From Gaiellaceae bacterium (lineage in GTDB: Bacteria; Actinomycetota; Thermoleophilia; Gaiellales; Gaiellaceae), in contig BPGK01000001.1 in assembly GCA_026002995.1 (NCBI GenBank), positions 2,543,988 to 2,607,987 of the forward strand: a DNA stretch of 64,000 nucleotides, written 5' to 3'. The notes under the pieces were generated by a model. The model ran no database searches and had not been told where the DNA came from. It saw nothing but the letters and a program-made list of their open reading frames with translations. Below, piece after piece: positions 2,359-7,712 of this stretch (its first letter is position 1; every line of letters begins with the position of its first letter). Position numbers and translations under genes: made by a program.

Positions 2359-2415
2359 GCGCTCGCGAGGCCAGGCGTACGTGACGTGCGGCGCCGCCGG
2401 CGACGTAGAGGCGAC

Positions 2416-2955
2416 GTGCAGGTAGCGACGATCGACGCGCTGCGGCGGGACGCGGGGGCTCGGCCGACCTTCGCGGCCGCGGCGGAAGAGCTCCTCGACG
2501 ACGTCTACGGGTACCTGCTGTACCTGACGAAGGACTGGGCGCTCGCCGAGGACCTCACGAGCGAGACGTTCGAGACCGCGCTCCGGAGGTGGAGCCGTTT
2601 CGACCCACGACGAGGGAGCGCGCGGGCGTGGCTCCTCGCGATCGCCCGCTCGAGCGCGCTCGACTGGTTCCGAGCCGAGCGACGGCGGCGGCGACGCGAG
2701 GAGCGCGCCGAGGCCCGTGAGGTGCGCAGCGAGCCCGAGCGCGCGTTCGGAGAAGCGCTCTCTCCCGAGCTCGAGACGGCCCTCGCGGAGCTGAGCGCAG
2801 GGGAGCGGGAGGTCATCGCCCTCCGCATCGTGCTCGAGCTCGACGGCGAGGAGACCGCACGCCTCCTCGGGATCACTCCGACTGCGGTGTCGACTCGTCT
2901 GCACCGCGCCCTGACGAAGCTCGAAGAGAGGATGAGAGACGATGACGTCGCCTGA
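2416..2955 (+). CDS. ECF (sigma-70 family) RNA polymerase sigma factor
   Basis: The protein has about 179 residues. A region-2 segment (about 22-95; YLTKDWALAEDLTSETF, then a WLLAIARSSALDWFR helix) is joined by an Arg-rich linker to a region-4 helix-turn-helix (about 120-175; LSAGEREVIALR, GITPTAVSTRLHRAL). The length is normal for ECF factors. GTG 2416 is chosen because AGAGG lies 4-8 nt upstream; another GTG at 2386 would add an odd poly-Arg tail. The gene overlaps the next by 14 nt, so the two are translationally coupled. That membrane partner may control this sigma factor, but it carries no recognisable zinc-finger anti-sigma domain. Confidence 0.88.
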   Translation: MQVATIDALRRDAGARPTFAAAAEELLDDVYGYLLYLTKDWALAEDLTSETFETALRRWSRFDPRRGSARAWLLAIARSSALDWFRAERRRRRREERAEAREVRSEPERAFGEALSPELETALAELSAGEREVIALRIVLELDGEETARLLGITPTAVSTRLHRALTKLEERMRDDDVA

Positions 2956-3946
2956 CCTGATCCACGAGCTCCGCTCGTCTCGTCCCACCGCGCCGGCAGC
3001 ACTGCGAATGCGCGTGCGCGAGATCGCGGGGCGCGAGCGAGAGCGCCCGCCGCTCCGCGAGCGCGTTCGGCTCCCGCTTCGGCGGATCTCGCTCGCCGCC
3101 GTTCCCGCTGCGGCCGCGCTCGCGGTCGTTGCTGCCGGCGTGGTGGGGATCTCGCGCTCCGGGAGTCACGCCGACGCGCTCCGGGATCGCGCAACCGTCA
3201 CGCAAGCCGCCCCCGAAGCGACGAAGGGCTCGTCGCCGAGCTTCGCGGACTCGAGCTCGCAGACGATCAGGGCGCAGCGGGTTGGCGCGACGCTCACGCT
3301 CGAGGTCGACGACCCGGACGCCGTCTCCCGTGCGGCCCAGGCCACGCTCGACCTCACCCGCCGGCTCGGCGGCTACGTCGTCAGCTCGTCCGTCGCGACC
3401 GGGGAGGAGGGGCGCGCGCAGCTCGTCGTGCGTGTCCCGGTGGAGAAGGTGCAGGACGCCATCGTCGGACTCTCCGGGCTCGGCCGCATCGTCGCGCAGC
3501 AGGTCACGGTGGACGATCTCCAGGAGCAGCTCGATGCGCTCGCCGCGCGCGAACAGGAGCTGAGGAACCGAATCGCCCGCGTGCGGGCGCGACTCGCGAG
3601 CGAGGGGCTCGAGCCCCGGGGCGAGGCGATCCTCCGCGCGCGACTCGGGTCGCTCCGCGCCGAGCTCGTCGGGGTGCGAAGCGAGTCGGCGGCGACGAAG
3701 GCCGACGCACGCATGGCGACGCTCTCGGTCACCGTCGCGACGCCCGACGCGATCAGCGTGGCTCACGTGCCGTCCCGGCTCGACCGGGCGCTCGACGAGG
3801 CCCTGAACGTGCTCGCCTGGGAAGGCGTCGTCGCTCTCGCGGCGGCGATCGTGCTCGCGCCGCTCGTCCTGCTCGGCGCAGGCGTCTGGCTCGCGCGCAG
3901 GCTCTACCGCCGCCGCGACGACGAGCGCCTCCTCGCGGCTCCGTAG
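2942..3946 (+). CDS. DUF4349-type membrane-anchored protein, putative sigma-factor partner
   Basis: The 334-residue protein has a cytoplasmic basic N-terminus (1-48), a first membrane helix (about 49-71), an extracytoplasmic DUF4349-like region (about 100-285) including a heptad-rich coiled coil (LQEQLDALAAREQELRNRI), and a second helix (about 294-316) followed by an RRLYRRR stop-transfer. DUF4349 proteins have no established biochemical activity. ATG 2942 lies inside the sigma-factor gene, which argues for one transcript and stoichiometric production. By position it could be an anti-sigma or signal-transducing partner; this is inferred from context only. Confidence 0.78.
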   Translation: MTSPDLIHELRSSRPTAPAALRMRVREIAGRERERPPLRERVRLPLRRISLAAVPAAAALAVVAAGVVGISRSGSHADALRDRATVTQAAPEATKGSSPSFADSSSQTIRAQRVGATLTLEVDDPDAVSRAAQATLDLTRRLGGYVVSSSVATGEEGRAQLVVRVPVEKVQDAIVGLSGLGRIVAQQVTVDDLQEQLDALAAREQELRNRIARVRARLASEGLEPRGEAILRARLGSLRAELVGVRSESAATKADARMATLSVTVATPDAISVAHVPSRLDRALDEALNVLAWEGVVALAAAIVLAPLVLLGAGVWLARRLYRRRDDERLLAAP

Positions 3947-3983
3947 CCACGTGCACGCCGACACGGAGCGCACGGACTGTGAT

Positions 3984-4000
3984 ATATAGGACTCCTATAT
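3984..4000. promoter_or_regulatory. Perfect 17-bp palindrome, probable MarR operator
   Basis: The arms ATATAGGA (3984-3991) and TCCTATAT (3993-4000) are exact reverse complements around one base. The right arm runs into the ATG at 3999, and the left arm lies in an AT-rich TATATA stretch that would make a -10 box, so the transcript may be leaderless. AT-rich palindromes of this size are typical MarR dimer sites. Binding here would block transcription of marR and the protoglobin gene. Confidence 0.7.
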
Positions 4001-4622
4001 GTCTGCCGATCCGAGCAGCGTCAGCCCCGCCCGCACCGCGGCCGTCGGCCTCTCGAAGATCGGCCTCGCGCTCCGTCACCACGCCTGGGAGGAGCGCGAG
4101 CGGACGGGGCTGACCCCGACTCAGGGACAGATCGTCGCGCTCCTCGGCAGCCGCGGGCCGCTCCGGATCGGCGAGATCGCAGCCGGCTTGGCCGTCTCCC
4201 AACCAACCGTCAGCGACGCGGTCGCGGCGCTCGAGAGGAAGAGCCTCGTCGCGCGACGCCCGGCCACCGACCGGCGGGTGCAGATCGTGGAGCTGACCGA
4301 CCAGGGAGGGGCCGCCGCAGCGGCCGCCGCGGAGTGGCCCGACGCGCTCCTCGCCGCCGTGGACGCGCTCGAGCCCGACGACCAAGCCGCGTTCCTCCGC
4401 GGCCTCCAGCGCATGATCCTGGAGCTCCAACGGCGCGGGCGGATCCCCGTGCAGCGGATGTGCGCGACGTGCCGGTTCTTCCGACCGCACGTCCACCCCG
4501 ATCCGATCCGACCGCACCACTGCGCGTTCGTCGACGCGCCGTTCGGCGACCGCGAGCTTCGGCTCGACTGCGCCGACCACGAGCCCACGCCAGACAACGC
4601 GATCGAGAAGGAGGCAGCATGA
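3999..4622 (+). CDS. MarR-family regulator with Cys/His-rich C-terminal tail
   Basis: Residues about 15-140 form a MarR winged-helix domain (LTPTQGQIVALLGSRG; IGEIAAGLAVSQPTVSDAVAAL recognition helix; RRPATDRRVQIVELT wing). At 207 residues it is longer than the usual 140-160 because of a tail (148-207) holding Cys155, Cys158, His164, His166, His173, His174, Cys175, Cys191 and His194. The spacing looks like a metal- or cofactor-binding cluster (inference). The stop overlaps the protoglobin start (ATGA), so both are made together. The palindrome at its start codon suggests autoregulation, with the tail as a possible redox or metal sensor. Confidence 0.88.
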   Translation: MSADPSSVSPARTAAVGLSKIGLALRHHAWEERERTGLTPTQGQIVALLGSRGPLRIGEIAAGLAVSQPTVSDAVAALERKSLVARRPATDRRVQIVELTDQGGAAAAAAAEWPDALLAAVDALEPDDQAAFLRGLQRMILELQRRGRIPVQRMCATCRFFRPHVHPDPIRPHHCAFVDAPFGDRELRLDCADHEPTPDNAIEKEAA

Positions 4623-5176
4623 GTGCAACCGCCCGAGGCCAGGTGACGCTCGAGCACCTCGAGCTCCTGAAGCGCTCGACGCTCTTCACCGACGAGGACG
4701 TCGCAGCGCTCCGGCGCTCGGGAGAGATCCTCGCCGACCAGGTCGAGGACGTGCTCGACGTGTGGTACGGGTTCGTCGGCTCGAACCCGCACCTCGTGGC
4801 GACCTTCGCCCGCAGGTCGGACGGCCAGCCCGACCCCGACTACCTCGCTGCCGTGCGCGTCCGCTTCGGGCAGTGGATCCGCGACACGGCTGCGGCGAAC
4901 TACGACGAGGAGTGGCTCGCCTACCAGCTCGAGATCGGGCGACGACACCACCGCTCGGGCAAGAACCGGACCGATAGCGTGGACGCGGCCGAGCACGTGC
5001 CGTTGAGCCACATCATCGCGCTCGCCTACCCAATCACGGCCACACTCCGACCGTTCCTCGAGAAGGGCGGCGATCCCCCGGAGGAGGTCGACCGCATGCA
5101 GGACGCCTGGCGCAAGTCCGTTCTCATGCAAGTCGCGCTCTGGGCGCACGCCTACGTGCCGCACGAGGACTGGTAG
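4619..5176 (+). CDS. Protoglobin-domain heme protein
   Basis: A single-domain protein of 185 residues resembles the globin-coupled sensor/protoglobin family over its whole length: LKRSTLFTDEDVAALRRSG, an FVGSNPHLVATF segment, and EIGRRHHRSGKN. His110 or His111 in the last motif is the likely proximal heme ligand. No transmitter or output domain is attached. Protoglobins bind O2, CO and NO. Coupled to the upstream marR by ATGA overlap, it could bind or detoxify the gas that the regulator senses, or act as the heme sensor itself. The ligand is not predictable from sequence. Confidence 0.82.
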   Translation: MSATARGQVTLEHLELLKRSTLFTDEDVAALRRSGEILADQVEDVLDVWYGFVGSNPHLVATFARRSDGQPDPDYLAAVRVRFGQWIRDTAAANYDEEWLAYQLEIGRRHHRSGKNRTDSVDAAEHVPLSHIIALAYPITATLRPFLEKGGDPPEEVDRMQDAWRKSVLMQVALWAHAYVPHEDW

Positions 5177-5210: not shown

Positions 5211-5250
5211 CCGACCGCTGACGCTCCCCGCGGAGGGCGTCAGCGGTCGG
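5211..5250. terminator. Bidirectional hairpin terminator between convergent genes
   Basis: Inverted repeats 5211-5224 and 5237-5250 (14 bp, CCGACCGCTGACGC arm) with a 12-nt loop lie between the protoglobin stop and the convergent response-regulator stop, overlapping the latter's last codons. There is no long U tract, as is usual in high-GC genomes. Confidence 0.7.
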
Positions 5251-5812
5251 CGAGGGTCGCGATGAGCGCTTCCGCCACCACCTTGAGGGGACGCCCCGAG
5301 ATCTGGCTCGCTTTGCGGAGCCGGGTGAATGCTTCCTGCTCAGTGAGCCCCTCGCGCTCCATGAGGATCCCCTTCGCCCGCTCGATCGCCTTGCGGGCGG
5401 CGAGCGCCTCGGCCAGAGAGTCCGCCTCCTCGCGGAGCGCCGTGAGCTCCTCGTGGCGGGCGATGGCCGTCGCGATCGCAGGCAGGAGGTCGGTCTCGCG
5501 GAACGGCTTGACGAGGTAGCCGAACACCCCGGCCTCCACCGCCTTGGAGACGAGATCCCGCTCGCCGTACGCCGTCACCATGACGATCGGGATCGGCCGT
5601 TCGTCGAGGATCCGCCGAGCCGCCTCGATCCCGTCGAGACGCGGCATCTTGACGTCCAGGAGCGCGACGTCGGGCTCCGTCGCCCTCGCGAGCTCGACCG
5701 CCTCCTCGCCGTCCCGCGCCTCGGCGCAGACCTCGAAGCCCGCTGCCTCGAGCAAGCCTCGGAGGTCGAGCCGGATCAGGGTCTCGTCTTCGGCGACGAG
5801 GACGCGCGTCAT
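5240..5812 (-). CDS. ANTAR-domain response regulator
   Basis: The 190-residue protein has a receiver domain (1-118; phospho-acceptor Asp53 in LLDVKMPRLDG, conserved Lys102 in YLVKPF), a short coiled linker, then an ANTAR RNA-binding domain (about 125-187; ARKAIERAKGILMEREGLTEQEAF). ANTAR proteins bind paired hexaloop hairpins in mRNA and act as antiterminators. Its ATG overlaps the kinase stop (ATGA), so the two form a two-component system controlling RNA rather than promoters. Targets are unknown; no tandem ANTAR hairpins were recognised nearby. Confidence 0.92.
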   Translation of the reverse strand: MTRVLVAEDETLIRLDLRGLLEAAGFEVCAEARDGEEAVELARATEPDVALLDVKMPRLDGIEAARRILDERPIPIVMVTAYGERDLVSKAVEAGVFGYLVKPFRETDLLPAIATAIARHEELTALREEADSLAEALAARKAIERAKGILMEREGLTEQEAFTRLRKASQISGRPLKVVAEALIATLADR

Positions 5813-7212
5813 GCGGGGAACACCACCTCGGCGCGAAGGCCCGGCCCGGACGAGAGCCTGAGCTGGCCGCGCAACTCGTCGCGAACGAGCGCCCGCACGA
5901 TCGACAGGCCCGTTCCCTCCGGCCGACCGTCGATCCCGGGCCCGTCGTCGGCGATCTCGAGCCGGACGGCGCCGTCGCACTCGCCGAGCTCGATCTCCAC
6001 GCGTCCCCCCCCGTGCTCGAGAGCGTTCTGGAAGAGCTCGGTGAAGACGAGCGCGAGCGCCGTCGCCCTCTGACCCGCAAGCGAGACGGCCTCGACCCGC
6101 GCCTCGACTGCCTTTCCCGAGGCGAGGCCCTGCACCAGCATCGCGCGCAGGCGCTCGACGAGCTCCCCGAGCTCGACGTCGTCTTCGCGGTGCTCGGTCA
6201 GCACCTCGTGCACCGCGGCGATCGCGAGGATCCGATTCACCGAGTCCTGCAAGGCCTTACGGGGGTCGACGTGCTCCGCCCTCGCCTGCAGGCGCAGGAG
6301 CGAGGCGACGGCCTGGAGGTTGTTCTTGACCCGGTGGTGGATCTCCTGGGCGAGAACGCCGCGCATCACCGCCCGCCCGTGCTCGAGCGCGACCGCCGCG
6401 TGGTGCGCGATCGCCTCGAGCAGCGCTCGGTCGTCGTCGGTGAAGGGCGTGTCCCGGTCGCAGACGAGCTCGCCGATCTGCCGACGCTTCCAACGTAGCG
6501 GCATGCGCACCGCGTACGCGCCCGCGCGACCCTCCGGCCACGCGATCTTGCCGTCCTCGAGGACGAGCGCCGCGCCGGTCGCGTGCAGCGACTCCATCGT
6601 CGTCTTCACGATCGCCTCGAGCGACTCCTCGAGGTAGAGCGACTCCGACACCGCCTCGGAGATGCGCGCGAGCGCCTCGAGCTCGGAGACGCGGCGCTGG
6701 GCCGCCTCGTACAGCTTCGCGTGCTCGATCGTCTGCGCGACCTGCGACGCGATCGCCACGAGGAGCTCGATCTCGTCCTCGGTGAACACGCGGGGCTCCC
6801 GCGTCCGCACGTTCAGCGCGCCCTCGAGCGTGTCCCGCGCGAGGATGGGCACGGCGAGGATCGATTCGTACTCGTCCTCGGGGAGGTTCGGGAAGCCCTT
6901 GAAGCGCGGGTCGAGGTGCGCCTCGGCCGGGATCATCACGGGCGCGCGCTCCAAAGCCGCGACGCCCGTGATCCCCTCGCCCGGCCGCATCCGGGGCATC
7001 CGCGTCAGCTCGTCGACATGGGTGCCGTGCGTCGCGCGGAGCACGAGCTCGTCGGCCCGTTCATCGTAGAGGTAGACGAAGCAGGCGTCCGTCCCGAGCG
7101 CATCAGCGACTTCCCGAGCGACGAGCTCGAGCACCTCTTGCAGATCGAGCGACGAGTTGACCGCCGCGATGGTCTCCGTGAGCAGGCGGAGATGACGAGC
7201 CGTTGCGTCCAT
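5809..7212 (-). CDS. Soluble sensor histidine kinase, GAF-GAF-HisKA_2
   Basis: About 467 residues without membrane helices. GAF domain 1 spans about 20-165 (FVYLYDERADELVLRATHGT), GAF domain 2 about 175-280, and the HWE/HisKA_2-type dimerisation domain carries the EIHHRVKNN motif (phospho-His near 293). The ATPase domain has the N box FQNALEHG (about 394-401) and DDGPG (about 422). It should phosphorylate the ANTAR regulator encoded immediately downstream. The GAF domains imply a cytoplasmic small-molecule or redox signal. ATG 7212 is preferred; ATG 7221 would add three residues. Confidence 0.88.
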   Translation of the reverse strand: MDATARHLRLLTETIAAVNSSLDLQEVLELVAREVADALGTDACFVYLYDERADELVLRATHGTHVDELTRMPRMRPGEGITGVAALERAPVMIPAEAHLDPRFKGFPNLPEDEYESILAVPILARDTLEGALNVRTREPRVFTEDEIELLVAIASQVAQTIEHAKLYEAAQRRVSELEALARISEAVSESLYLEESLEAIVKTTMESLHATGAALVLEDGKIAWPEGRAGAYAVRMPLRWKRRQIGELVCDRDTPFTDDDRALLEAIAHHAAVALEHGRAVMRGVLAQEIHHRVKNNLQAVASLLRLQARAEHVDPRKALQDSVNRILAIAAVHEVLTEHREDDVELGELVERLRAMLVQGLASGKAVEARVEAVSLAGQRATALALVFTELFQNALEHGGGRVEIELGECDGAVRLEIADDGPGIDGRPEGTGLSIVRALVRDELRGQLRLSSGPGLRAEVVFPA

Positions 7213-7230
7213 CGCGAGCATTGTCACCGC

Positions 7231-7236
7231 TAGGCT
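7231..7236 (+). promoter_or_regulatory. TAGGCT -10-like box, 8 nt before ATG 7245
   Basis: TAGGCT followed by 8 nt and an ATG fits the leaderless-start pattern repeated at many first genes in this window. Confidence 0.45.
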
Positions 7237-7244
7237 GCCTCGTG

Positions 7245-7712
7245 ATGAGCTACGAGTGGCTCCTCTTCGGGCACCTCGTGGGGGCGTTCCTCTTCGTCGG
7301 GGGTGCGGTCGCCGCCGCGGTGCTGCGCGTCGCGGCGATGGGGAAGGAGCGCCGCCCCGCGGAGGTGGCGGTCCTCCTCCGCAGCGCACGGCTCGCGATC
7401 CCGCCGATCGCCGTCGGGCTCGTCCTCGTCCTCGTCTTCGGCTTCTGGCTCACGGGTCGGCTCGACCGCAGCCTCGGCGAGACGTGGCTCTCGCTCACAT
7501 TCCTGCTCCTCGGATGGATCGTCGTCGTCGGCGCGCTCACGGGACGCCAGGATCGCCACACCCGCGAGCTCGCCGAGCGGCTCGCCCGCGACGGCGTCGA
7601 GCACCACGAGGAGCTCGCCCGCCGACTCCGCGATCCGTTGAACCTCGCTCTCAGCACCTCGCTCCTCCTGGCCACGGCGGCGATCGTCGCGCTCATGGTC
7701 TGGCAGCCCTAA
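7245..7712 (+). CDS. DUF2269-type integral membrane protein
   Basis: The 155-residue protein has four predicted helices: about 5-28 (LLFGHLVGAFLFVGGAVAAAV), 50-70 (IPPIAVGLVLVLVFGFWLTG), 80-100 (LSLTFLLLGWIVVVGAL) and 132-152 (ALSTSLLLATAAIVALMVW). A charged loop (100-130) lies between helices 3 and 4. The pattern matches DUF2269 membrane proteins of unknown function. It is divergent from the kinase with only 32 nt between start codons, so their promoters overlap. Confidence 0.72.
   Translation: MSYEWLLFGHLVGAFLFVGGAVAAAVLRVAAMGKERRPAEVAVLLRSARLAIPPIAVGLVLVLVFGFWLTGRLDRSLGETWLSLTFLLLGWIVVVGALTGRQDRHTRELAERLARDGVEHHEELARRLRDPLNLALSTSLLLATAAIVALMVWQP

Follow-up and report, generated by a model that had tools for sequence, protein, structure and literature searches.

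The locus described here raises the question why the gene of a stand-alone protoglobin should be coupled to that of a MarR-family regulator with a Cys/His-rich tail, and to what signal such a pair would respond. It has been reported that the protoglobin of Methanosarcina isomerizes peroxynitrite and reduces nitrite (PMC4020757), and for stand-alone protoglobins several roles have merely been postulated (PMC4020757, PMC3820574). The pair lies in a stretch of 64,000 nucleotides from a Gaiellaceae genome (referred to here as the window; coordinates given without a locus number refer to it). An earlier note had described a perfect palindrome running into the start codon of the regulator and a translationally coupled globin gene, and had suggested that a metal- or redox-type repressor and a heme protein could form a small self-contained switch for gas or nitrosative stress.

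Organization of the unit

The first gene (3999..4622, forward strand) encodes a MarR-family regulator of 207 residues with a four-cysteine C-terminal tail. Pfam searches identified MarR_2 (E 3.3e-11) and MarR (E 6.2e-11) in this reading frame, with scores of 42.5 and 43.6 bits for PF01047 and PF12802 against cut-offs of 24.6 and 27, which places the protein within the MarR family. Its stop codon overlaps the start codon of the second gene (4619..5176, forward strand), which encodes a single-domain protoglobin of 185 residues. The overlap is an ATGA at 4619-4622, and a putative Shine-Dalgarno-like purine run for the protoglobin (4609..4613, forward strand, in an AGGAGG context) lies within the 3' end of the MarR gene.

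The operator-like palindrome ATATAGGACTCCTATAT (3984..4000, with no strand assigned) is indeed a perfect 17-bp palindrome, as the earlier note had stated, and its right arm holds the ATG of the MarR gene (3999-4001). It occurs once in the window, where no copy is expected. Of its 11-bp core, TAGGANTCCTA, the 2.62-Mb genome has a single copy; at two mismatches to the core the genome yields only two irregular look-alikes, a number equalled by a reversed control pattern. A candidate extended -10 element (TGATATATA, 3980..3988, forward strand) is overlapped by the operator, and would imply a transcript that is leaderless or has a very short leader. A promoter/terminator scan returned nothing near the operon, a full consensus -35/-10 pair included, and an Rfam search gave no match.

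The unit is preceded on the forward strand (2386-3946) by genes for an ECF sigma factor and for a membrane protein with DUF4349 that may be its anti-sigma factor; the DUF4349 gene ends 52 bases before the MarR ATG, with no terminator found between them. Directly downstream of the protoglobin gene and convergent with it are reverse-strand genes for a response regulator whose C-terminal part is predicted to be an ANTAR-like RNA-binding output (5240-5980) and for a predicted GAF-type histidine kinase (5809-7389).

Phylogenetic distribution of the tailed MarR and its box

An alignment of six tailed MarRs, used to scan the genomes of 84,980 species, gave 390 places. The best 80 of these 390 are distributed among Pseudomonadota, Cyanobacteriota, Acidobacteriota, Planctomycetota, Actinomycetota, Bacillota, Chloroflexota, Thermomicrobiota, Gemmatimonadota, Nitrospinota, Deinococcota, Binatota, Poribacteria and Tectimicrobiota, and plasmid sequences added carriers from Bacteroidota and Thermus. 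Within Thermoleophilia a MarR match running through the tail was found in 6 of 199 genomes, this one included, and the genomes sampled from the same genus were without a tailed MarR; the MarR-protoglobin unit is patchy in its distribution and probably mobile.

In at least 12 phyla, operons with a gene for the same tailed MarR were found to be headed by the box TTAGGANTCCTAA. The exact core TAGGANTCCTA is present in 52 of 79 tailed-MarR loci (55 copies in 723 kb), against 0-1 copies in ten Markov simulations and no copy of the reversed pattern. Of 80 loci, 56 have a near-box no more than 300 nt upstream of the MarR gene; most of the others have the box far upstream, ahead of a preceding gene. 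Where a protoglobin and a tailed MarR occur together, the box stands ahead of the first gene whichever the gene order, e.g. in loci L038, L088 and L094, in which the protoglobin gene comes first and is preceded by the box. Among Actinomycetota loci found via the protoglobin alone, the box (with at most 2 mismatches) accompanies 9 of 10 that have a tailed MarR, and the nearest relative locus (L003, the same as L022, of the same family) has the same gene pair with ATTTAGGACTCCTAAAT at the ATG. Thus, a palindrome before its own operon has been conserved in independent lineages, as expected of an autorepressor with a conserved operator. A hairpin in the RNA that hides the start codon was discarded as another reading of the palindrome, since relatives have tens to thousands of bases between the box and the MarR gene downstream of it, and the box there stands ahead of other genes.

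Among 17 family members searched over the whole genome, the strict box is present in 8 (range 0-3 copies). Because it occurs once in this genome, and usually once in the other genomes in which it is present, the tailed MarR is, judging from the distribution of its site, a local regulator. A search of the open-access literature revealed no paper using the box in this context.

The four-cysteine tail of the MarR protein

The AlphaFold2 model of the whole MarR protein has a mean pLDDT of 88.7, and a fold search with it recovered MarR chains at a VIA Z of about 15 over residues 9-148; the full-model search covers the MarR part only. The tail (residues 147-207; 4437..4619, forward strand) contains the motif C155-X2-C158-X16-C175-X15-C191 together with H164, H166, H173, H174 and H194. 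The count of nine Cys/His residues given in the earlier note is therefore correct, and the conservation resides in the cysteines, the histidines being variable among relatives. None of the 89 relatives departs from the four cysteines, a conservation that partly reflects how the set was collected, since two of the four fall inside the search patterns used for it. They are also kept in all 14 sequences aligned from whole-length searches and in all ten complete MarRs that were found in Actinomycetota because they adjoin a protoglobin (L103 and L104 among these are repeats of L094 and L088). The core pattern across relatives is CX2C-X8..17-C-X15-C. A Pfam search with the tail gave no match, comparison of the tail profile with the PDB gave no meaningful match, and no solved structure in the PDB spans the tail. 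The tail probably binds a metal, and it falls into no family described so far. We class the regulator as a probable MarR autorepressor, distinguished by this four-Cys tail and by its conserved operator.

The protoglobin and its partnership with the tailed MarR

The protein encoded by the second gene matches PF11563 over its full length (E 2e-30, 106.3 bits against a cut-off of 25) and is thus a genuine protoglobin, the only one in the 2.62-Mb genome; the coupled stand-alone globin of the earlier note is hereby confirmed. A phmmer search aligned it nearly full-length with the Methanosarcina acetivorans protoglobin 2veb (E 1.4e-60). H109, W48, Y49 and F82 (numbered without the initiator Met) align to H120, W60, Y61 and F93 of the 2veb chain, which we take to be the proximal HisF8 and the distal TrpB9, TyrB10 and PheE11. 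All four positions, as named by helix in PMC4020757, are represented among the aligned residues.

Adjacency of the two genes proved to be conserved. A single-domain protoglobin is encoded in 25 of the 89 tailed-MarR loci, from at least 10 phyla, and the genes are often coupled by ATGA; this type of coupling is seen again in L003, L023, L037, L042 and L082. Starting from the globin, we found a protoglobin (E 1e-15) in 14 of 396 genomes of Actinomycetota, and in 10 of the 13 other than ours a tailed MarR is adjacent, within the flanks examined. In Acidobacteriota a protoglobin is present in 7 of 297 genomes; of the six besides the one at the centre of the search, none has a clear MarR neighbour, though in one a partial MarR lies at the locus edge together with a one-mismatch box. 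The link from protoglobin to MarR is therefore strong in Actinomycetota (10/13) and weak in Acidobacteriota (at most 1/6). The gene tree is poorly resolved, and we claim no single origin from it; on this tree the partnership with protoglobin takes 15 changes, where shuffles take about 21 on average, so that it is clustered yet has been gained or lost repeatedly. We found no paper on the MarR-protoglobin pair in the open-access literature.

In one acidobacterial contig (L054:4959-6269) the MarR, the tail and the protoglobin form a single open reading frame of 436 residues, with an internal Met before the protoglobin; this may be a natural fusion, a stop-free shared frame or a sequencing error.

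Other partners of the tailed MarR

No protoglobin was found within the stretch examined in 64 of the 89 tailed-MarR loci, in which the tail and the box are the same. Other globins are present in 11 and HTHP in 10 of the 89, and at least one of these heme proteins (protoglobin, other globin or HTHP) in 39. Further partners in the 89 loci are a redoxin (18), a glutamine amidotransferase (17), a small thioredoxin-like protein (15), a MOSC protein (8) and a thiol peroxidase (6). Of 120 proteins scanned among the co-directional neighbours, 21 are protoglobins and 21 redoxins. Two relatives from Thermoleophilia have the tailed MarR next to CMD/AhpD-like genes, with GGANTCC boxes, and Thermus has the box ahead of a cytochrome P460 gene, next to genes for nitrite reductase and cbb3 oxidase. 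Most of the partner genes speak for thiol redox rather than NO.

Several of these families have a characteristic arrangement. The thioredoxin-like protein of about 80 residues (L045:5606-5920 and 14 more loci) is the usual first downstream gene in sphingomonads, several planctomycetes and rhizobia, and the genes that come after it are often those of a ResA-like redoxin and a class I glutamine amidotransferase. HTHP is encoded in cyanobacterial loci such as L083:3608-4102 and L020:2394-2648, among others, and some of the 10 loci with HTHP carry two copies. We also found an apparently exported protein of about 240 residues in 33 of the 89 loci (L076:3495-4235, L016:4642-5358 and 31 more); this family has no Pfam or NCBIfam match and is probably part of the regulon.

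Since the same MarR and box occur mostly without a protoglobin, with other heme proteins or thiol redoxins instead, the protoglobin is most likely a regulated output and no required co-sensor. A metal- or redox-type repressor that acts as a local switch together with a heme protein is still the best reading of the pair, but the idea of a sensor made up of globin and repressor alone does not hold; the switch is, from its gene content across loci, wider than a globin device.

Proposed mechanism and alternatives

In the mechanism that we propose, a MarR dimer would bind the palindrome, over the promoter and the start codon, and repress its own gene together with the coupled protoglobin gene. The four cysteines of the tail would hold a metal centre that NO, peroxynitrite or a related oxidant would destroy or modify by nitrosylation or oxidation; a HiPIP-like [4Fe-4S] cluster is the most likely centre, and zinc the next. 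With the intact centre lost, the MarR would leave the DNA and the globin or thiol detoxification operon would be derepressed, the protoglobin then binding or converting the reactive species until repression returns. That the unit is a two-gene autoregulated stress operon of this kind, with a metal-tailed MarR as the repressor, an oxidant or NO as the releasing agent and the protoglobin as the output, seems to us fairly probable. The inducer is the weakest step: a reactive nitrogen or oxygen species of some sort is likely, and NO in particular is doubtful. The partners, which are heme proteins and peroxide or thiol enzymes, give hints about the signal, and the reactivity of protoglobin with nitrite and peroxynitrite, together with the peroxidases and redoxins, would fit the same chemistry. 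We propose only tentatively that the tailed MarRs constitute a phylum-spanning class in which a HiPIP-like [4Fe-4S] tail senses NO or peroxynitrite at TTAGGANTCCTAA, and that this class is the main dedicated control of the stand-alone protoglobins of Actinomycetota.

The spacing of the tail cysteines pointed to HiPIP before any fold search was carried out: the four-Cys arrangement is HiPIP-like in that the middle loop varies while the last spacing is fixed. When the tail was modelled alone with AlphaFold2, the best model reached a pLDDT of 89.9 and the other four were poor (50-69). In a Foldseek search of 350,542 chains its two best matches were the small subunit of 4-hydroxyphenylacetate decarboxylase and a HiPIP, at non-significant E-values of 1.2 and 2.1; both are HiPIP-like [4Fe-4S] folds (PMC12358834). 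VIA-align superimposed residues 13-57 of the tail model on residues 1-42 of 2y8n_B (Z 3.4, rmsd 2.6, 40 aligned residues). At the level of sequence, HHalign of the tail against seven HiPIPs gave non-significant probabilities of 10-21% over 14 columns, and the tail profile found neither a HiPIP nor a Pfam family. The likeness to HiPIP is a real hint and no demonstration; from the cysteine spacing and a weak fold match, a cluster of this type seems more probable than zinc. Four invariant cysteines with a CX2C pair would suit zinc equally well, and redoxins, thioredoxin-like proteins, thiol peroxidases and CMD proteins are common partners, so one may envisage a structural or redox-switch Zn(Cys)4 site in which HOCl or peroxides form disulfides, eject the zinc and free the operator, with no Fe-S cluster and no specificity for NO. 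We consider this rather unlikely; the top two Foldseek matches were HiPIP-like Fe-S folds, whereas no zinc-ribbon chain of useful probability was among the matches, an absence that is weak evidence.

Two other explanations assign the sensing to a different part of the unit. The protoglobin could be a heme co-sensor of O2, CO or NO that signals directly to the MarR, the two forming one gas switch, and the recurrent ATGA coupling and the frame shared by MarR, tail and protoglobin in L054 (436 residues) would agree with this; however, the partners are interchangeable, and the tail and the box are kept in the 64 of 89 loci with no protoglobin in the stretch examined, which makes a co-sensor very improbable. 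In its first 150 residues the regulator folds like an ordinary MarR protein, so it might respond to a small organic molecule bound in the classic dimer pocket, the tail being merely structural. This is improbable, as most partner genes encode heme and thiol proteins and do not serve efflux or catabolism, and the four tail cysteines belong to the most strictly conserved positions.

Whatever the centre, a conserved repressor with an easily searched operator makes the function of stand-alone protoglobins testable, as the inducer will tell when the cell wants the globin. In at least a dozen phyla, moreover, one regulator ties globins, HTHP, cytochrome P460, thiol peroxidase and the apparently exported family into a single regulatory scheme. 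Should the tail turn out to be a HiPIP-like Fe-S site, the MarR scaffold would have gained a new sensor module; if the class senses NO or peroxynitrite, the protoglobin would be a nitrosative or oxidative stress protein.

Comparison with known regulators

NsrR, a member of the Rrf2 family, is an Fe-S, NO-labile repressor of globin genes, and would work like the tailed MarR if our proposal is right. It belongs to a different protein family: a Pfam scan of the window MarR up to E 1 found no Rrf2 match. The two also differ in their sites, as NsrR of Thermus binds CTTGACCNNGGTCATGG (PMC5748679) and the box of the tailed MarR is TTAGGANTCCTAA. A MarR-family factor (called NorR) has been reported as conserved in the denitrification islands of Thermus (PMC9270275), and the tailed MarR that we found in Thermus (L019) lies beside nitrite reductase, behind a TTAGGAGTCCTAA box. 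The two are probably the same gene; the parts of PMC9270275 consulted describe neither tail nor box.

The zinc regulators AdcR and ZitR also combine a MarR fold with a metal, but the NCBIfam AdcR model scores the window MarR at 29.1 bits, short of its cut-off of 175, and the match stops before the tail. HiPIPs and the HiPIP-like accessory subunits (HPAD gamma, BSS beta) share with the tail a four-Cys site with a variable middle loop; they differ in the last spacing, which is X13 in HiPIPs and X15 in the tail, and show no significant sequence or profile similarity to it. The Methanosarcina acetivorans protoglobin belongs to the same family as the window protoglobin, the gene of which sits behind a tailed-MarR box; this comparison concerns the globin sequence only.

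ArnR of Corynebacterium glutamicum, the only MarR-like Fe-S regulator that we found in the open-access literature, is a winged-helix repressor reminiscent of MarR/ArsR with a C-terminal Cys Fe-S sensor; it represses the globin gene hmp and the nar genes, and is released by NO (PMC12343034). The NCBIfam ArnR model matches the window MarR in the HTH only, at 13.2 bits against a cut-off of 400, and by every test applied the protein falls outside the ArnR family. ArnR has three conserved cysteines (179, 193 and 223), whereas the tailed MarR has CX2C-X8-17-C-X15-C, and its targets are hmp and nar, whereas the tailed MarR adjoins a protoglobin. Since ArnR is an Fe-S, NO-released, MarR/ArsR-like repressor of a globin gene, a design of the kind proposed here does exist in nature.
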